Below, in pieces: positions 7,101 to 36,900 of a stretch of 64,000 nucleotides of DNA (position 1 is the stretch's first letter; the number at the start of each line of letters is the position of its first letter). The notes under the pieces were generated by a model. The model made no database searches, was not told where the DNA came from, and saw only the letters and a list, made by a program, of their open reading frames with translations. Origin of the DNA: Sneathiella marina. GTDB lineage: Bacteria > Pseudomonadota > Alphaproteobacteria > Sneathiellales > Sneathiellaceae. The position numbers and the translations under genes were made by a program. The stretch spans positions 186,001 through 250,000 of the forward strand of contig NZ_CP098747.1 in assembly GCF_023746535.1 (NCBI RefSeq), read 5' to 3'.

Positions 7101-8294
7101 CTATAAGCTATTGACGAGTCTAGATAAAGCCTCTTCCGTGGCGTCGGCGCTGCCAACCAGGGCAACACGGATATATTCATCGCCGGGATTGACGCCCTGC
7201 TCATCGGTGACACTGAGAAAGGCGCCCGGCAAGACCCGTAACGCGGCCTCCGTCCAGAGGCGTTTCGTGGCCTCCACCCCATTGCCGACATTCAGCCAAA
7301 GGAAAAATCCGGCTTGCGGTCGATAAAAGTCAAACCGCCCGGCCAGCAGTCTTTCAGCAATATCAAATTTCTGCCGGTACAAGGCCCGGTTTTCTGCCAC
7401 ATGGGCATCATCATTCCACAAGGCTGCCGCAGCCGCACATACGGGCAAGGGGGACGCGGCCCCGGCGAAGTTCCGTAAATTCAGAAAGTTCCTGATGATA
7501 TCTTCCTGGCCGACACAAAACCCGGATCGCAGACCGGCGGCGCTGGACCGTTTGGACAGGGAATGAAAGGACAGGACATGATCGAGGCTGCCACCGTCTT
7601 CCCTGCAGATTTCCAGAATACCGGCCGGTGGCTCCTGATCATAAATTTCGGTGTAGCATTCATCCATGACCAGCATGAAATCATGCTTTCTGGCAAGCCC
7701 TAGCACCCGGCGCAAATAATCCTTGCTGGCGCAGGTGCCTTGCGGGTTGGCCGGGCTGCACAGATAAAAAGCTGTTGTCCGGTCCAGCAGGTCGGGGTCG
7801 AGGGCGTCAAGGTCCGGGAAAAACCCCGATTGTTTGGTTGCCGGCATAAAAACCGCGTCCGCGCCGGCCATGACAGCGGCGGCATGATAGACATGATAAT
7901 AGGGGGTGGGCAGCAGGATGGCGGGTTTCGCCTGATTATGTCCGGCCCGTTCCGTGATCACCTGTGCGATCATGTACAGGGCTTCCTTGGTTCCGTTTAC
8001 CGGCGCAATATGCCGGTCCGCTTCTATCATTCCCGCAGGCAAATGATAGCGGCGATCCAGCCAGTTGGTGATGGCGCTGCGTAAGTCGGCACTGCCACCT
8101 ACCGGCGGGTATTTACCATAGAGATGTTCATTGGCCCGCAAGGCATCAATCATCAACTGAGGCGGTGTATGTTGCGGCTCGCCGATGGTCAGGGTTTGCG
8201 GCGCCAAATTCGGCGCAGCTGACAAGGGCCCCAATAGAGCCCTCAAGGCCTCAAACGGGGATCCCCTCAATTGTGATAAGTCAGAATTCAGCAT
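7101..8294 (-). CDS. Class I/II pyridoxal-phosphate aminotransferase, DapC-like
   Basis: A fold-type I aminotransferase of about 397 aa. Visible landmarks are SIGEP-like TIGEPQHTPP near the start, YGKYPPVGGSADLR, the substrate/PLP region PVNGTKEALYMIA, YLCSPANPQGT, the aspartate strand MLVMDECYTEIYD, and the PLP lysine in SFHSLSKRSSAAGLRSGF. Relatives with this look include N-succinyldiaminopimelate aminotransferases of lysine synthesis, but substrate cannot be read from the sequence. I place the start at the ATG at 8294, which begins MLNSDLSQL as in relatives, instead of a TTG at 8327. It lies 9 bases upstream of ftsK and is probably co-transcribed with it. Confidence 0.85.
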   Translation of the reverse strand: MLNSDLSQLRGSPFEALRALLGPLSAAPNLAPQTLTIGEPQHTPPQLMIDALRANEHLYGKYPPVGGSADLRSAITNWLDRRYHLPAGMIEADRHIAPVNGTKEALYMIAQVITERAGHNQAKPAILLPTPYYHVYHAAAVMAGADAVFMPATKQSGFFPDLDALDPDLLDRTTAFYLCSPANPQGTCASKDYLRRVLGLARKHDFMLVMDECYTEIYDQEPPAGILEICREDGGSLDHVLSFHSLSKRSSAAGLRSGFCVGQEDIIRNFLNLRNFAGAASPLPVCAAAAALWNDDAHVAENRALYRQKFDIAERLLAGRFDFYRPQAGFFLWLNVGNGVEATKRLWTEAALRVLPGAFLSVTDEQGVNPGDEYIRVALVGSADATEEALSRLVNSL

Positions 8295-8443
8295 CAAGTC
8301 CGTGCAAACCATTTTTGTAGAGAACAAAACGTGCTCGAACTTAAATAATTAGTCCTCTCGGCACAAGCAGCTTCGCCGCCCCGACGGTCATAAAAAGACA
8401 GCCTGTGTTTTTATACCACTATGAACGCCAGAGGGAGGGTCCT

Positions 8444-9673
8444 TTACCTAAGATCCTCTTCCGGATAGGCGCCGATTTTGTGAATACTGAGGTCTGCGCC
8501 AATGAATTCCTCTTCTTCCGTCAGGCGGATACCCATGCTGGCTTTCAACAGGCCATAGACAACGAACCCGGCGGCGAGCGCGTAGGCGCATCCGATCAGG
8601 CTGACAACCAGTTGTGCCATAAAGCTGACGCCGCCCAGCCCGCCGAGCGCCTCCAGCCCGAAAATACCGGCGGCGATACCGCCCCAGAGGCCGCAAAGAC
8701 CGTGCAAGGGCCAGACACCAAGAACATCATCAATTTTCAGCTTGTTCTGGCACAGGGTAAAGGCGAATACGAAAAGGGCGCCGGCAATACCGCCGGTGGC
8801 AAGGGCGCCGATCGGGTGCATGATATCGGAGCCGGCGCATACCGCGACCAATCCTGCCAACGCGCCGTTATGGACAAAGCCGGGATCGTTTTTTCCGACG
8901 AGGAGGGCGGCGATGATGCCCCCCACCATGGCGAGCAGGGAATTCATCGCCACCAGACCGGATATGCCGCCGATGGACTGGGCACTCATGACGTTAAAGC
9001 CGAACCAGCCAATACACAGGATCCAGGACCCAAGGGCGAGAAAGGGGATGTTCGAGGGCGGAATGCCCATAACCCGGCCGTCTTTCCGATATCGTCCGCG
9101 GCGGGCACCGAGCAGGAGGACGGCGCCAAGGGCAATCCAGCCGCCGACCGCATGTACAACAATCGATCCGGCAAAATCATGAAAGCCGACACCGAAGATA
9201 TTGGTTATGACCTCTTGCAAGCCAAAATTCCCGTTCCAGATTATGCCTTCGAAGAAGGGATAGATCAGCGCCGTTAAGATCGCTGTTGCAAAAAGTTGTG
9301 GCCAGAATTTCGCCCGTTCGGCAATCCCGCCGGAAATGATTGCCGGGATCGCGGCGGCAAATGTCAACAAGAAGAAGAATTTGACGAGGTCGTAGCCATT
9401 GCTGGCAAACGCATAGCCCTCAGTTTCAGCGGTTCCGGATAGAACAGCTGCGTTGACAAAGAAATCAACACCATAGGCAACGGCATAGCCGATGAAGAAA
9501 TAGCTGACCGTGGAGATGCCAAAATCAACAAGGATCTTGACCAGGGCGTTAACTTGATTTTTGCGCTGTACGGTGCCGACTTCCAAAAAGGCAAATCCGG
9601 CATGCATGGCAAAAACCATGATTGCACCCATAAGAACAAACAGGACGTCAGAGCCCGTAATCGCATCGGACAT
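8444..9673 (-). CDS. Ammonium transporter (Amt family), second copy
   Basis: A 409-aa Amt/Mep/Rh-family channel with eleven expected membrane helices. Signs are AMHAGFAFLEVGTVQRKNQVN near the start, DFAGSIVVHAVGGWIALGA with the first pore histidine, and LCGLWGGIAAGIFG with the second. Unlike the copy upstream it has no cleavable signal peptide, and it ends in LTEEEEFIGADLSIHKIGAYPEEDL, a tail shared with the other copy. It imports ammonium and is expected to be blocked by GlnK. It is downstream of glnK-amtB but separated by 216 bases that hold a terminator and a sigma-54-like promoter, so it is probably a separate transcription unit. Confidence 0.93.
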   Translation of the reverse strand: MSDAITGSDVLFVLMGAIMVFAMHAGFAFLEVGTVQRKNQVNALVKILVDFGISTVSYFFIGYAVAYGVDFFVNAAVLSGTAETEGYAFASNGYDLVKFFFLLTFAAAIPAIISGGIAERAKFWPQLFATAILTALIYPFFEGIIWNGNFGLQEVITNIFGVGFHDFAGSIVVHAVGGWIALGAVLLLGARRGRYRKDGRVMGIPPSNIPFLALGSWILCIGWFGFNVMSAQSIGGISGLVAMNSLLAMVGGIIAALLVGKNDPGFVHNGALAGLVAVCAGSDIMHPIGALATGGIAGALFVFAFTLCQNKLKIDDVLGVWPLHGLCGLWGGIAAGIFGLEALGGLGGVSFMAQLVVSLIGCAYALAAGFVVYGLLKASMGIRLTEEEEFIGADLSIHKIGAYPEEDLR

Positions 9674-9730
9674 TTGGTTATTTCTCCCTCATATTTATCA
9701 CCGCGTTTGCTCGCGGGTTATCCGTTCCTT

Positions 9731-9746
9731 ATCAAGGAGCATGCCA
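9731..9746 (-). promoter_or_regulatory. Sigma-54-type promoter of the second amt gene
   Basis: The reverse strand reads TGGCATGCTCCTTGAT: GG and GA are ten bases apart, close to the RpoN consensus TGGCAC-N5-TTGCA. It lies about 58 bases before the start at 9673. An almost identical element stands in front of glnK. Confidence 0.5.
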
Positions 9747-9808
9747 AACCTGATATGCCCAAGATTTCAGCGGATATAGGGAGATTACCGGTCTATTTTC
9801 CCGGAAAT

Positions 9809-9848
9809 TGCCCAAAATCTAGTCATTCAACTGACCAAATTTTGGGCA
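9809..9848 (-). terminator. Hairpin terminator after amtB
   Basis: TGCCCAAAAT (9809-9818) pairs perfectly with ATTTTGGGCA (9839-9848), with a second short stem (AGTCA/TGAC) inside the loop. It lies just after the amtB stop and before the promoter of the second amt gene. Confidence 0.55.
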
Positions 9849-9889
9849 TTTTTATATTGTTGCACAAATATGTGGCGTGCAGGTTGCGG

Positions 9890-11215
9890 CTATAAGGTCT
9901 GCGATCCTCTACCAAATTCCGGGTAGGCTTCCAGACCAAGCTCTGTTTTATCAAGCCCCATCACTTCATCTTCCTCGTCCACGCGTAGGCCGATGGTGAA
10001 TTTGAGGATAAACCAGAAGACCGTACTGAGGACAAGGGCAAAGGCGCCGATGGCAACAATTCCGATAAGCTGCGTGATAATGGTTGCCTCCGGATCAGAA
10101 AAAGCAACGGCCAGGGTGCCCCAGATACCGGCGAATAAATGCGCGGGAATGGCACCGACAACATCATCAATCTTAAGCTTGTCGAGAAAGGGCACCGCCA
10201 GCACGACAATGACGCCGCCAACAGCACCGATCAGGACCGCCATGCCCATTGACGGGTCCGCAGGTTCGGCTGTTATGGACACCAGTCCGGCGATGGCCCC
10301 ATTGAGCGCCATTGTCAGGTCGACCTTCTTGTACAGAACCTGCGTCATGACCATGGCGGCGATTACCCCGCCGGCGGCGGCCATATTTGTATTGGCAAAC
10401 ACATTGGACATTTCAATGGCGCTGGCCGCAGAACCGAGCGCCAGGACGGACCCGCCATTGAAGCCGAACCAACCCAGCCAGAGAACGAAGGTTCCAAGAG
10501 TGGCAAGCGGGAGATTGGCACCGGGAATTGGCTGGACCCGGCCATCCGCTGCATATTTGCCTTTTCGGGCGCCGAGGATAATGGCGCCGGACAAAGCGGC
10601 CCAGCCACCAACGGAATGAACCAGGGTCGATCCGGCATAATCCGAAAAGCCCATTTCGGAAAGCCAGCCACCGCCCCATACCCAGGATCCCTGAATTGGG
10701 TAGATAATGGCTGTCAGCAGGACAACGAAAGCAAGGAAGGACCAGAGTTTGACCCGCTCGGCGAGGGCGCCAGAGACGATGGAGGCTGCGGTCGCAACGA
10801 AAACCATCTGGAAGAACCAGTCTGACGAGGCCGAATATCCACCTTCTTCAAAGGTCCCCTCCAGAGCCGCCGCATCATCGGGCCCCCAGAACGGGCTTAA
10901 ACTGCCCACATAGCCGGTAACATCCAGATACATCAGGTTATACCCGACCAGATAGAAGGTCAGCCCGGCGAGGGAATAAAGGGCAATATTCTTCAGGCAG
11001 ATGGTCGCCGTATTCTTGGATCGCACCAGGCCGCTTTCCAGCATGGCAAATCCGGCCGCCATCCACATGACCAGGGCACCGTTCACTAGGAAGGAAAATG
11101 TATTGAGGACATAGGCGGTCTCTGCATCAACCGCCGCCTGAGCAGGTGCTGCACTGAGCGCCATGAAGGCGGCAGTGACGGCGGCCGCATTTTTTAGGTT
11201 AAGTATGTTACGCAT
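9890..11215 (-). CDS. amtB: Ammonium transporter AmtB
   Basis: About 441 aa. It has a cleavable signal peptide (MRNILNLKNAAAVTAAFMAL, cleavage after APAQA), as in many proteobacterial AmtB proteins. The channel follows: MWMAAGFAMLESGLVRSKN, DYAGSTLVHSVGGWAALSGA (first pore histidine) and IPAHLFAGIWGTLAVAF (second). The C-terminal tail, DEVMGLDKTELGLEAYPEF, is the part that senses GlnK. The start at 11215 is chosen over 11272 because it has AGGAGA seven bases before it, begins the signal peptide and avoids overlapping glnK. It is co-transcribed with glnK, the standard pair. Confidence 0.95.
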   Translation of the reverse strand: MRNILNLKNAAAVTAAFMALSAAPAQAAVDAETAYVLNTFSFLVNGALVMWMAAGFAMLESGLVRSKNTATICLKNIALYSLAGLTFYLVGYNLMYLDVTGYVGSLSPFWGPDDAAALEGTFEEGGYSASSDWFFQMVFVATAASIVSGALAERVKLWSFLAFVVLLTAIIYPIQGSWVWGGGWLSEMGFSDYAGSTLVHSVGGWAALSGAIILGARKGKYAADGRVQPIPGANLPLATLGTFVLWLGWFGFNGGSVLALGSAASAIEMSNVFANTNMAAAGGVIAAMVMTQVLYKKVDLTMALNGAIAGLVSITAEPADPSMGMAVLIGAVGGVIVVLAVPFLDKLKIDDVVGAIPAHLFAGIWGTLAVAFSDPEATIITQLIGIVAIGAFALVLSTVFWFILKFTIGLRVDEEDEVMGLDKTELGLEAYPEFGRGSQTL

Positions 11216-17418: not shown

Positions 17419-17493
17419 GCGGGCGTAGCTCAGGGGTAGAGCATAACCTTGCCAAGGTTAGGGTCGTGAGTTCGAATCTCATCGCCCGCTCCA
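17419..17493 (+). tRNA. tRNA-Gly (GCC)
   Basis: The cloverleaf can be folded by eye. The acceptor GCGGGCG (17419-17425) pairs with CGCCCGC (17483-17489). The D-arm is GCTC/GAGC. The anticodon arm is TAACC-TTGCCAA-GGTTA with GCC at 17451-17453, and the T-arm contains GTTCGAATC. The discriminator is T, and CCA (17491-17493) is encoded. The gene marks the change from core genes on the left to transport and catabolic genes on the right. Confidence 0.97.
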
Positions 17494-32230: not shown

Positions 32231-35200
32231 TTATCCCTGACCGCAATGCCCAAAGGACAGAATATCCGGAATTTTCCCCGGCTCGGCAATTTGCAAAAGG
32301 GCCAGTCCCACGCCGGCAGCACCATTGAAAAACCCTGGATTATCAGCGTCATTCCCTACTCGCCACTGAAAACTCTTGTCCGTTTTCGCTTTCGCTAAAA
32401 TACATGAAATTTGCGAGAGCACCTGTTTTTCCAACTTGCATTTACCAGTTTCCCGTGCGGCTCGGGTCAAAAAGAAAAGAATACCGAGATTTCCGGAAAA
32501 GAGGTCATCATTGTCCAATAACGCCCGACCGGATAATCTTTCAATGGCATGTTCTATGTCCTCCGAGTAGCTGGCGTAAGGCCTATTCAGCGCTTCGAGT
32601 TCGATGCGCGCTATTCCGATGCCTGCTGCGCCATTTGCGTAGCCTGGTAATTGCGGTGCTTGTGAATCCTCCCTCTGGTGTTCCACATTGCGTAAATCGG
32701 GCCATGATCCAAATTTATCCCGCAAGGAACTTTCATATTCCAGACCTTCTATTGCCGCGTCATTGAATTGTGGAAGATTTAAAGCCTGCGCAGCGCGGGA
32801 GAGGGCGAGGGCGATACCGCTTGCACCATGCATTAGCCCGGATAGAGGCATGGCCCAGTTCTGGCTTTTCCATGCGGTGCTGCCGCAGGCCAAAAGAGTC
32901 GAGCAATCTAAGAGATGGCGTCCACAATTTCGGATTTTATGCACAATTTCCGGACTGGGGTATCTATGGTAAAAGGCCTGAAGGCCAATCATTGCTCCGG
33001 CAACTCCGGACATCAATCCAAAATCCCTGCTTGTTGCTATTTTCTCCGGTGTTATTGTTTGCGCGAAGACTTGTGCGAAGCTCAAATATCGACTGTCATT
33101 CAGCATATCAGCCAGCACCACAAGAGCGTATACAATCCCCCCGAGGCCAAACCCTAGCCCAAGCGACATGGCGCATCCCGATCGTTGCAATTTGACAATC
33201 ATGCTTGCTCGCTCAAGCACAATCGCGGTTGTTTCGGTCGCACGGATTCGATAAGTTTCCTCGCCGGTTATCTTGTAAAGCGCGGCTTGCAGCAATCCAA
33301 TTCCAAGAGTGCCGCAAATTAGAGATGGTGGAAGTATGCTAAGCTGAAGCTTCTGTTCATCCGAAGTAACCGGTAATAGCCCAAGCCAGGTAACGCCGCC
33401 ACCGGCTTTGATGGCAGACATATTAATCACCTCTTCCAAGTCTCTTACAGTTTCAATGATCGTCTCTTTGCTCGCTGGTGCCAGCGGTGATTCTACGACT
33501 TCTGGTAACGGGTCATGTGGTTCACCTATCCTGGATACGCTAACGCATTGCTGGATCATGAGGCGATCACGCTTGAGCATTTTACTGTCCAATTCCTGCA
33601 GCCGGGATTTAGCTTGTTCAAGACAGGGGGCACGGAAAAAATTCTTGATGATATATTGGTCACCACAAGCAAGGCTCGTTGAGGTAGGAGATCCGCTATA
33701 AAAGGGAATATTGAATGTAGACAGGCAGGATATTTCGTAATTTCTGAAGGCAGCTGATGCATTGAATTCTTCCTGCGTGAACTCTGACAACAGCAACAAA
33801 TCGAATTGTGAGCTCCATGTAACACCGTTTTCAAGGTTTTGAGGGCTGAGGGCTCTTTCCATCAGCATAGTATAGACATGTGTGGGTCTTAAGATTGAAC
33901 GAAAGGTCACCTTTTCGAATGCGTCCAGTGGTCCGCCTGACGCGCCTATTCTAGATCCAAATTTTATCAGAAATGCAAACATATCTTTGTAGCCCGCGAC
34001 TAGATATTTTTCATATTTATTTACATCCAGCACTGCTCCTTGCAGTCTGGGAATATTGTTAAAGAGAATGCCTTTTTTAGGAGCTTCTTGGGCATGGGTA
34101 GGATGGTTATTCGAAGGAACAGAAGATATTTCAGCAATATCGAGGCCGCCAAGCCGGATCGCTTTTCCATTTGGAGCGCTATACCAACCTGGTAAATATC
34201 CGGTATTTAGAACGGAATTTTCGATAATATCTGATGCTAATTCGAAAGCCTGTTCAGCACCTCGAGATTGCAGGCTTCTTTTCGGCTGCGCTTGAAAAAC
34301 TGTTTCCAGATCAAGTGGTACCGGCTTGGTCCCGGACGCGATAATATTACCATAATGGAAATCATTTCCGTGCAGTAACCGAATTAAGCAAAGCGTGGCT
34401 CCTGACCGCCGAAAAAACTCTTCGGCTTCCGATTGTGTTTCACAGGGTTTAGGGACGATCCACTCCACCCAACCATATCCGTTACAGACCCGGGTTTTTG
34501 GGACACCGGCGGAGTAGGGTGCACCATGATCGTTAAGCCACTGGATTAATGTGCCCCAGGCTCGATCAATGCGCAAATCCTTGGGTTTGTATCCGATACT
34601 GATGTTGTTCTCAAATGTCAGCTTATAAATAGATTTTCCTTCGTTATATAGTTCTGATAGACCATATTCGATGCTTACGACCCGTCCGGGAGTGTCAATT
34701 TTCGTCAAGGAAAAGATCTCAGTGCTCAAATCTTGAGACAGACGTTCCAGGAATTCTAAGGTAGTGGCTTGCCAGTGCATTATCATTGTCGTAATCAACC
34801 GGGCAAGTACAGGCCGGTTGTATAAGAAATTATCCAGCCCTTCCTTTTCAATTACTTGAATCGCTTTTTTTTGCCTGTGGCATTCTGTAATTCGTGCTGT
34901 CTTTTCCTGACTGGAAGGGAGATTTGACGACATGCCAGATTTGTTGCCGTAGTTTTCTCCGACATCATCAATCGATTTGATACAACAATCTGAGATGGGT
35001 TCTAGTAATGAGAAATCCAAATCCGAAAGCGCTTCACATGATAGATTTTGCAGCCAGATGTCTTTGGCTTTCATGTCTCGCATATGTCGGGCATTTTTTA
35101 CCAATGGAAAGAAAATTTGCTCGTAGGGAAAAAGGGATTTTGGTGTTGAGCTAGATTGCTTCTTGGTAGTTTTTTTGTTTACCGGGCCGGCAACCAGCTG

Positions 35201-35542
35201 ACTAAATACAATTGCCCATTCTGGAAGAGGTTGATCGCAGTTGAGCACAACTTCGCCAAATAGCGGTTTTGCTTTCGCGGGATCAATGTTTCGATCGGCC
35301 AGAATATCGCTCATCAAGAAAGGATCCCCTCTAGATGTTGATTTAACCCAAGCGTTGTACCGGCTCTTTGCAATTGCATAATTTCTCTTGGTTTTCTTTG
35401 GCGCAAAATGTCCCGATAGCCTTTCTTCCAATGTACTTGCGCGAGCGGCGAGCGTTTTCAACTCTTCGATGGTGAAAGCCTCTCTTGTGAAGGTTGGGCC
35501 TGCCGCAGTGATTTGCGCGGATAGAGTAGCTTGAGCAGTCAT
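32231..35542 (-). CDS. Class II lanthipeptide synthetase LanM with degenerate cyclase domain
   Basis: About 1103 aa. The N-terminal dehydratase half keeps its catalytic set: Lys in GYKPKDLRIDRAW (about 319), Asp, His and Asn in LHGNDFHYGN (394, 396, 399), Asp in VPLDLETVF (411), and Arg/Thr in SILRPTHVY (552, 554). These phosphorylate and eliminate Ser/Thr in a precursor peptide. The C-terminal half is LanC-shaped, with glycine-rich repeats such as GLMHGASGIALAL. But the WC(H/N)G motif reads YANG (Cys to Ala, about 969), and the CHG motif reads LFSG (Cys to Phe and His to Ser, about 1015-1016). All three zinc ligands are therefore absent. The ATG at 35542 has GGGAG before it. No precursor, protease or exporter gene is adjacent. 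Confidence 0.92.
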   Translation of the reverse strand: MTAQATLSAQITAAGPTFTREAFTIEELKTLAARASTLEERLSGHFAPKKTKRNYAIAKSRYNAWVKSTSRGDPFLMSDILADRNIDPAKAKPLFGEVVLNCDQPLPEWAIVFSQLVAGPVNKKTTKKQSSSTPKSLFPYEQIFFPLVKNARHMRDMKAKDIWLQNLSCEALSDLDFSLLEPISDCCIKSIDDVGENYGNKSGMSSNLPSSQEKTARITECHRQKKAIQVIEKEGLDNFLYNRPVLARLITTMIMHWQATTLEFLERLSQDLSTEIFSLTKIDTPGRVVSIEYGLSELYNEGKSIYKLTFENNISIGYKPKDLRIDRAWGTLIQWLNDHGAPYSAGVPKTRVCNGYGWVEWIVPKPCETQSEAEEFFRRSGATLCLIRLLHGNDFHYGNIIASGTKPVPLDLETVFQAQPKRSLQSRGAEQAFELASDIIENSVLNTGYLPGWYSAPNGKAIRLGGLDIAEISSVPSNNHPTHAQEAPKKGILFNNIPRLQGAVLDVNKYEKYLVAGYKDMFAFLIKFGSRIGASGGPLDAFEKVTFRSILRPTHVYTMLMERALSPQNLENGVTWSSQFDLLLLSEFTQEEFNASAAFRNYEISCLSTFNIPFYSGSPTSTSLACGDQYIIKNFFRAPCLEQAKSRLQELDSKMLKRDRLMIQQCVSVSRIGEPHDPLPEVVESPLAPASKETIIETVRDLEEVINMSAIKAGGGVTWLGLLPVTSDEQKLQLSILPPSLICGTLGIGLLQAALYKITGEETYRIRATETTAIVLERASMIVKLQRSGCAMSLGLGFGLGGIVYALVVLADMLNDSRYLSFAQVFAQTITPEKIATSRDFGLMSGVAGAMIGLQAFYHRYPSPEIVHKIRNCGRHLLDCSTLLACGSTAWKSQNWAMPLSGLMHGASGIALALSRAAQALNLPQFNDAAIEGLEYESSLRDKFGSWPDLRNVEHQREDSQAPQLPGYANGAAGIGIARIELEALNRPYASYSEDIEHAIERLSGRALLDNDDLFSGNLGILFFLTRAARETGKCKLEKQVLSQISCILAKAKTDKSFQWRVGNDADNPGFFNGAAGVGLALLQIAEPGKIPDILSFGHCGQG

Positions 35543-35961
35543 GAAGTTTCTCCCGCGCTCAAGCAACAAGCTGGCGCGACCTAAATGTTTCTAGAATGTG
35601 GATTGAGTACCGGCAATTATGGAGTAGAGGGACCTTATCCGGCTCTCTCTAAGAAATTATATTGACAGGTCAAAACAGTGCCCAAATTGACTTTAAGCTT
35701 TGTCGTGGCGACAAAAAAAACCTCTATCAATGTTAGAGGTTCGCGTTTCATCATTCGCCATTCAATTCACGTTGGCCTAAATCTAAGGTGTTTTGATAGC
35801 TGTTCAAATTCATAAAATATATGAACTATATAGAGAAACCCTATGGTGACTGAGCTGAGTCTTTTGCCATGGAAAAAAATTGTCAGTGGCTACTTGTTCT
35901 AACTATTGATCTTTCTTATATAGCGAGACGGTAAGTAGTATGTACAAATGGGATCAGTCGT
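35543..35961. other. Intergenic region upstream of lanM and of the OxyR-like gene
   Basis: No recognisable lanthipeptide precursor. On the reverse strand there is a good -10 (TATAAT, complement at 35656-35661) about 115 bases before lanM, with a weak TTGGGC -35. Further up, an intrinsic terminator faces lanM. Just before it lies a 20-codon reading frame (35813 to 35751, starting MNLNSYQ) without a ribosome site, cysteine-free and so an unlikely lanthipeptide precursor. Forward-strand short frames (for example MEKNCQWLLV at about 35870) also lack support. Confidence 0.4.
35713..35741 (-). terminator. Intrinsic terminator on the reverse strand upstream of lanM
   Basis: Read on the reverse strand, AACCTCTA and TAGAGGTT pair perfectly around a seven-base loop, followed by eight T. 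It would end a leftward transcript that begins between about 35750 and 35960, where no normal gene exists. Confidence 0.75.
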
Positions 35962-36900
35962 ATGGCGTGTTTTAAGCCGTCCCCGAGACAGCTGGAGTAT
36001 TTGGTTGCTGTCAGCAAGACAGGAAGTTTTTCAAAAGCCGCCCGGCTGTGTCACGTTTCACAGCCTACTTTATCGACGCAAATTCAACTATTGGAAAGCC
36101 AGCTTCAAGTAACGCTAATCGAAAGATCCAGGAGCGGCGCTTGCCCGACACCTATCGGCCTTAAGGTCATTGATCAATCTAAATCTATTCTGGCAGATCT
36201 TTCGCACTTAATGAATACGGTCGCCCATACCAGCGGGAATTTGGACAATAAAATTAAACTGGGTGTTGGCCCAACATTTGGACCATATTTTCTACCGTAT
36301 CTCCTGCCGTCGCTAAACACAAAAGACTTTGGATTGGAAATCTTGATTACTGAAGGAAGCTGGGAGGATATGCAGGAAGGGCTCTTAAAGGGTGAATTGG
36401 ATTGTGCTTTAACATCCCCGTTTGAAGAGTTGATCCATTTGGAATATGAAGAAATTATCGCTGAACCCATGTGGATTGGAATTCCGGTCGATCATGAATT
36501 TGCCCGATGTGATCGTCTTTTACCTGAAATGCTCAAGGGTCAGAAATTTTTCGGTCTGGCTGATGACTATACCTACTATCAGACGAAGCTTCAGGAGTTT
36601 TGCGATTTTGTAGGAGCGTCAATTCATGAAGAATATGTTGGTGCAAATTTGGACGCTATCCGGCAATTAGTCTCCATCGGCAAAGGGTTGTCGTTTTTTC
36701 CAGAGTATTATGTAGCTTCTGAATTTACAAAAGAAGGTCGTGTGGCGCTTCGTCAAATTTCTGGTGTTTCTCTTTCCAGGTCGATCGGTCTGATTTGGCG
36801 TCAGGATTCGCCTCGACAGCTGCATTTTCAAAAACTACTCGATGCGTGCAAAGGAAGCCTGATGGATTGTCGTGAGCTTAGTGAACGGCAGATTGCTTGA
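35962..36900 (+). CDS. OxyR-like LysR-family regulator
   Basis: A 312-aa LysR protein. It opens PSPRQLEYLVAVSKTGSFSK with the helix-turn-helix in AARLCHVSQPTLSTQIQLLE. The effector part (GVGPTFGPYFLPYLLP, SIGKGLSFFPEYYV) resembles the OxyR branch. OxyR's paired redox cysteines cannot be assigned with confidence: several cysteines exist (for example LDCAL, FCDF) but not in the C-G-x-C-type setting. So hydrogen peroxide sensing is not established. It faces the short-chain dehydrogenase downstream. Confidence 0.85.
   Translation: MACFKPSPRQLEYLVAVSKTGSFSKAARLCHVSQPTLSTQIQLLESQLQVTLIERSRSGACPTPIGLKVIDQSKSILADLSHLMNTVAHTSGNLDNKIKLGVGPTFGPYFLPYLLPSLNTKDFGLEILITEGSWEDMQEGLLKGELDCALTSPFEELIHLEYEEIIAEPMWIGIPVDHEFARCDRLLPEMLKGQKFFGLADDYTYYQTKLQEFCDFVGASIHEEYVGANLDAIRQLVSIGKGLSFFPEYYVASEFTKEGRVALRQISGVSLSRSIGLIWRQDSPRQLHFQKLLDACKGSLMDCRELSERQIA

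Follow-up and report, generated by a model that had tools for sequence, protein, structure and literature searches.

What does a class II lanthipeptide synthetase (LanM) do once the zinc site of its cyclase domain has been lost? The question is raised by a LanM-like gene of Sneathiella marina that occupies positions 32231..35542, minus strand, of the 64,000-nucleotide stretch analysed here (the window; contig NZ_CP098747.1, 186,001 to 250,000) and encodes 1103 amino acids. A sequence-only reading had described it as an orphan enzyme with an intact dehydratase half and a zinc-free cyclase half. Our leading explanation, still a tentative one, is that the S. marina LanM is a non-cyclising dehydratase that phosphorylates Ser and Thr and acts in trans. 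The kinase-fold domain would bind ATP and phosphorylate Ser/Thr of a peptide, and elimination of the phosphate, probably at a lower rate than in ordinary LanMs, would yield dehydroalanine or dehydrobutyrine. The zinc-free LanC domain might be kept for structural reasons or to hold the substrate, as has been reported for the enzyme CcaM, and no lanthionine rings would be made. The substrate would be encoded elsewhere in the genome or would not be a classical leader peptide. We infer all of this activity, and the substrate with it.

An intact LanM with a replaced zinc site

The open reading frame (ORF) is real and intact, and its product is a class II LanM. The frame runs for 1103 codons without a stop (probability by chance 9e-27, from base composition), starting from an ATG at 35542 that lies 7 nt downstream of a likely ribosome-binding site read from the sequence (GGGAG, 35550..35554, minus strand); an alternative TTG start at 35569 is possible. 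All features of the gene given below are on the same strand. Pfam assigns amino acids 244-616 to a DUF4135 dehydratase domain of the kinase fold (33695..34813, 280 bits) and amino acids 736-1095 to a LANC_like cyclase domain (32258..33337, 137 bits), the only LANC_like match in the S. marina genome. The dehydratase domain is not shortened, since positions 2-376 of the 378 in the DUF4135 profile are covered. The class II model TIGR03897 scores 592 bits against a cut-off of 304. In contrast, the class III LanKC model NF038151 (NCBIfam) reaches only 84 bits against a cut-off of 575, and DUF4135 stands in place of the lyase and Ser/Thr kinase domains. Of the proteins with solved structures, LicM2 (PDB 6st5, E 6e-57) is the closest in sequence.

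All three zinc ligands are replaced, just as the sequence-only reading had it. YANG (32630..32641) stands in place of WC(H/N)G, turning the first zinc Cys into A969, and LFSG (32492..32503) in place of LC(H/C)G, turning the second Cys into F1015 and the third ligand into S1016. In the alignment with LicM2, WCHG lies over YANG and LCHG over LFSG, and no alignment put ligands elsewhere. Among 46 other aligned LanMs, the first ligand column holds Cys in 40, Ala in 4 and Ser in 2; the second holds Cys in 42, with Met, Ser, His and a gap once each; and the third holds Cys in 29, His in 11, Trp in 4, and Ser and a gap once each. There is redundancy among these rows, which therefore do not count as independent (L030 and L026 represent one gene, and several pairs are near-identical), and the set excludes matches shorter than 780 amino acids (L010, L014, L025, L027, L028 and L029) as well as L012 and L013. 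Because rows L036-L049 were retrieved with patterns from the zinc-less alignment, the share of zinc-less LanMs in the set is not a natural frequency.

The losses in the cyclase domain fall mostly on its catalytic columns. G842 (33017..33019) occupies a position where 42 of the 46 other LanMs are acidic (Asp 36, Glu 6) and which we take, from alignment spacing with no structure, to be the NisC Asp141 site. Of five catalytic columns four are lost, and of 27 other conserved cyclase columns three (Fisher p 0.0044; the reference was 39 zinc-intact rows of 45, G842 was assigned to the catalytic columns only once it had been noticed, and the partial row L007 was dropped from this test and from the column-retention test). 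The toroid glycines are retained, again in line with the sequence-only reading, whose view that the gene is not simply broken is supported too. Also retained is H905 (32828..32830; His in 39 of the 46), at the presumed position of the general acid of LanC enzymes (PMC9934072). We favour a non-cyclising enzyme because the zinc ligands are lost while the residues of the fold are kept.

Two alternatives would preserve ring formation. In the first, zinc would be held by other residues, for example by a His-Cys pair (H1099-C1100) in the C-terminal tail GHCGQG (32231-32250). The C-terminus is thus not quite the normal one claimed earlier, since this short tail extends past the family's usual LLWE-type end. 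Nothing places the tail near the active site, neither ligand motif contains Cys or His, and we give this alternative hardly any credence. In the second, rings would form without metal, as in class III LanKC enzymes. ThurKC, a class III enzyme with a metal-free LanC-type domain, has Ser726, Phe770 and Asp771 at the ligand positions, and its cyclisation requires Phe770 and Asp771 (PMC10604976). F1015 matches Phe770 and H905 is kept, but the required Asp771 corresponds to Ser1016. ThurKC, unlike the S. marina LanM, has separate lyase and kinase domains. In view of the Ser at the Asp771 position and the low class III score, we consider zinc-independent cyclisation very improbable.

The dehydratase domain and its phosphate-elimination residues

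The claim that the dehydratase half keeps every catalytic residue stands for most of them and fails at the P-loop. Retained are K319 (codon 34586-34588), the kinase residues D394, H396, N399, D411 and E413 (34304..34363), and R548 and T554 (33881..33901), which correspond to R506 and T512 of CylM (numbering from PMC4550811). At the P-loop, E297-L298-Y299 (34646..34654) replaces the Asp-x-His of other LanMs, the Asp252/His254 pair of CylM. Phosphorylation by CylM involves Lys274, Asp347, His349, Asn352 and Asp364, and elimination of the phosphate involves Asp252, His254, Arg506 and Thr512 (PMC4550811). The phosphorylation set (Lys, Asp-x-His, Asn, Asp) is complete in the S. marina LanM as K319, D394, H396, N399 and D411. 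The elimination set is incomplete, with Arg548 and Thr554 retained, Asp changed to Glu297 and His to Tyr299. We read the domain as a dehydratase because all of its kinase residues are kept together with R548 and T554. CylM D252A and H254A yield phosphorylated intermediates and partial dehydration, and H254A completes the reaction with time (PMC4550811), so elimination by the S. marina LanM may be slow and not absent.

The same residues bear on a second explanation, in which the enzyme is a LanM disabled in elimination, that is, a peptide or protein Ser/Thr kinase with a dead cyclase, whose product would be a phosphopeptide or phosphoprotein. None of the other 46 aligned LanMs has a Tyr at the position of Tyr299, both activities that follow phosphorylation are altered together, and the CylM mutants at the equivalent pair accumulate phosphorylated intermediates (PMC4550811). 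However, the change of Asp to Glu is mild and occurs also in L022 (the column is Asp in 45 of the other LanMs and Glu in this one), CylM H254A still eliminates with time, and the critical Thr512 of CylM is kept as T554. On balance we regard a kinase product as rather unlikely. The evolutionary form of this idea, that a LanM shed elimination and cyclisation and became an independent Ser/Thr kinase acting on a peptide or protein, reversing the kinase fold's gain of elimination, strikes us as unlikely too. With this gene, nature provides a test case for the conversion of a LanM into a plain peptide kinase. The literature searched, which lay outside most subscription papers and did not cover the P-loop of CcaM, yielded no full-length LanM in which the zinc site and the P-loop pair are both changed.

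Zinc-less relatives and their candidate precursors

Zinc-free cyclase domains are uncommon in class II, as the sequence-only reading had supposed, but they are already in print, for LanMbC/CcaM (PMC10676384), the Pseudanabaena galeata LanM (PMC11356792) and CA_C0082 (PMC10301443). Like the S. marina LanM, CcaM, one of the LanMbC dehydrazole dehydratases, consists of DUF4135 fused to a LanC-like domain that lacks zinc ligands and is still present. It is a tested zinc-less dehydratase that forms no lanthionine and requires its cyclase domain for dehydration (Nat Commun 2023, PMC10676384), and for this reason it argues for our dehydratase reading. CcaM is encoded together with a YcaO protein, a dehydrogenase and an NHLP precursor, and its only targets are Ser residues that precede an azole (PMC10676384). 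The S. marina LanM, in contrast, has no such partners among its ten nearest genes and has a changed Asp-x-His in its P-loop; CcaM was compared by description and not by sequence, its P-loop lying outside the comparison. The LanM of P. galeata CCNP1313 (OA858_RS24675) has also lost all three ligands and was published as probably unable to cyclise (PMC11356792). Unlike the S. marina enzyme, it lies near a Cys-free Nif11-type precursor, has an intact dehydratase motif and belongs to a separate cyanobacterial group. CA_C0082 of Clostridium acetobutylicum is LanM-like, with zinc ligands absent and dehydration residues altered, and, like the orphan S. marina LanM, it has no other known lanthipeptide genes in its genome (PMC10301443). 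However, CA_C0082 is 670-728 amino acids long, lacks parts of the dehydratase and is tied to agr quorum sensing (PMC10301443), whereas, against this description, the S. marina dehydratase is full length and its ten neighbours (metabolic genes, an AlkZ-like gene and LysR regulators) include no agr.

Our own comparison contained six LanMs, of 45, that lack two or three zinc ligands. They come from Nostoc sp. UHCC 0926 (L032), P. galeata (L034), Nostoc flagelliforme (L042), Nostocales HT-58-2 (L043), Nostoc sp. CMAA1605 (L046) and a Rhizobium beringeri plasmid (L103). The ligand positions read Ala/Met/Trp in L034, Ala/Cys/Trp in L032, L042 and L043, and Ser/Ser/Cys in L046. In L103 they read Ser/His/Ser, but the alignment is insecure at this point and the His may have a role. 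All six keep the whole dehydratase set, Asp-x-His included, and this counts in favour of the dehydratase reading.

The candidate precursors near these genes, called by one leader pattern, point the same way, since their cores are free of Cys or have a single Cys beside a YcaO gene. All 11 candidate cores at L032 (4), L034 (1) and L046 (6, one of them doubtful) are Cys-free. The four at L042 and L043 (two each) have one Cys apiece; both loci carry YcaO, and a ThcOx-type oxidase is confirmed for L042. At the zinc-intact L033, L037, L038, L039, L041 and L045, all seven candidate cores have one to five Cys. The pattern found no candidate at L036, L040, L044 or L047, and the counts leave out one more Cys-free ORF of L032 (17725-17985) and a longer ORF of L046 (3030-3500). 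We suspect that loss of the metal site is linked to a switch from ring-making to dehydration, and that the S. marina LanM has gone one step further, with its phosphate-elimination pair changed as well.

Some of these loci merit description in their own right. On a Nostoc plasmid, L032 (3731-7661) has Cys-free Nif11- and nitrile-hydratase-type precursors beside the zinc-less LanM, and a radical SAM-like protein at 26.6 bits, below the Pfam cut-off of 29.5. L042 (2591-7502) and L043 (2855-7488) each combine YcaO and a zinc-less LanM with Nif11 precursors, in which the core starts with a single Cys (xCTP). The L046 locus of Nostoc holds a zinc-intact LanM cyclase frame (5-1126), a complete LanM in which Ser replaces both zinc Cys (7859-11110) and several Cys-free precursors. 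In Rhizobium beringeri, the cluster around the plasmid LanM without zinc Cys (L103/L107; NZ_CP140809.1, 135606-156290) is annotated with Nif11, two YcaO-like proteins, a TfuA-like protein, MoaD/ThiS, MoeB and a methyltransferase, and the Nif11, YcaO-like and TfuA-like genes also speak for the dehydratase reading. The Nif11 core region as read is Cys-free, and the product is perhaps a dehydrated, thioamidated or azole-bearing ribosomally synthesized and post-translationally modified peptide (RiPP).

Is the S. marina LanM a member of the cyanobacterial group? L032, L034, L042 and L043 form a group in the tree that does not include the S. marina LanM, which falls with six rows from genomes of its own class. 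A single origin of the S. marina LanM and these four WANG sequences was rejected by the approximately unbiased test (p 0.0015), in which branches were long, the group had been defined by its motif once the first tree was known, and L046 and L103 took no part. This suggests that the zinc site was lost convergently here and in the cyanobacterial group, and so at least twice among LanMs. In the first tree the S. marina LanM paired with L048, a pairing that we discarded as a long-branch join, and the row L006_gen proved to be a wrong reading frame; the second tree omits these two along with L008_gen, L022_gen, L026_gen, L023_gen and L024_gen.

Distribution and genomic setting

LanM occurs in one of 24 genomes of the genus, that of S. 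marina itself. With this genome counted, searches with the S. marina LanM matched 1 of 25 genomes in the order, 11 of 385 in the class and 12 of 398 in the phylum, and TIGR03897 matched one of 25 in the family. The class of genome G424 gave matches in 2 of 48 genomes, both already among the others. Long matches in these whole-genome searches have 24-29% identity, and the top value, 34%, belongs to a cyclase-only match (L010). No close relative, with intact CHG or otherwise, was found, identity being 28-30% over the full length and up to 34% over the cyclase domain, and pattern scans of genome and viral contigs with the S. marina LanM alone confirmed none.

The sequence-only reading also called the gene an orphan, and that description holds. 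By Pfam, the ten nearest large genes encode an iron alcohol dehydrogenase, an amidase, a PhyH dioxygenase, an AlkZ-like protein, a short-chain dehydrogenase/reductase (SDR), an acyl-CoA dehydrogenase and four LysR regulators; the remaining large genes of the window were seen as ORFs only. Neither these ten genes nor, by leader pattern, the small ORFs of the window yielded a recognisable RiPP precursor, protease or transporter. No small ORF fits that pattern, which suits Nif11- and NHLP-type leaders and would miss other types. Neither YcaO nor an NHLP precursor is among the ten genes (YcaO elsewhere in the genome was not searched for). Searches of the S. marina genome for two leader types gave no Nif11 match over the cut-off. 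They gave six NHLP matches at three loci, which we rejected as precursors because all three loci bear CTLCSC, presumably the signature of the nitrile hydratase alpha subunit.

These findings bear on another possibility, that the LanM was recently acquired and is in early decay, its frame still open and selection gone. The presence in a single genome of the genus, the lack of recognised partner genes, the long branch in the tree and the altered dehydratase columns outside the P-loop (D611N and F615Y) would all fit. So would composition: the 5' two thirds of the LanM have a G+C content of 0.43-0.45 and the neighbouring LysR and SDR genes one of 0.43-0.46, a weak signal in surroundings that vary from 0.42 to 0.56, and the codon-use index of the LanM, 0.747, lies below all others in a comparison of ten window genes (0.762 to 0.800). 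However, 1103 open codons and cyclase losses concentrated on catalytic columns speak against decay, and we judge it unlikely.

Several observations weigh against a non-cyclising dehydratase acting in trans. The P-loop Asp is Glu297 here, and the P-loop His, Tyr299 here, is kept in all 46 other LanMs, the six zinc-less ones included. Of 22 dehydratase columns conserved in 90% of rows or more, the S. marina domain retains 18, fewer than any other of the 14 rows printed (those with the lowest cyclase retention of 46 computed), and this low retention would count towards divergence or decay. The pattern of loss also differs, since the H905 position is lost in all six zinc-less LanMs and kept in S. 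marina, and the Cys-free precursors of L046 may belong to the second, zinc-intact LanM frame nearby. The Nif11 and NHLP results leave the reading with no substrate found, and occurrence in one genome of 24 means that long-term selection is not demonstrated.

Around the gene, the LanM is convergent with the AlkZ-like gene and divergent from a LysR gene. The AlkZ-like neighbour is present in 13 of the 24 genus genomes, its own included, and in the 12 others the flanks (up to 1.5 kb) have no further match to the window, so no empty site is shown. For the LysR neighbour, the best-scoring match in other genomes has 35% identity. Upstream of the LanM, on the minus strand, lie a weak promoter-like TGGGCA-N17-TATAAT (35656..35684; three such sites were found, against a shuffle average of 6.0) and, upstream of it, a terminator-like hairpin with a T run (35718..35742; six such sites, against a shuffle average of 4.7). 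Rfam gave no match up to E 1 in 35400-36100, and the one tRNA of the window, at 17419, is far from the LanM.

Elsewhere in the genome are two C39-domain proteins, about 0.8 and 2.1 Mb from the LanM. Small ORFs around them fit a loose pattern and were set aside by eye as unconvincing precursors. A C39-domain ABC transporter locus (L054, 5213-10192, near coordinate 2.35 Mb of the contig) lies beside large proteins and two paralogous proteins of about 230 amino acids with an SGGIDSVYVL motif. Three genes resembling nitrile hydratase alpha subunits are found in the S. marina genome at 162211-162600, 1268626-1269015 and 3676915-3677307.

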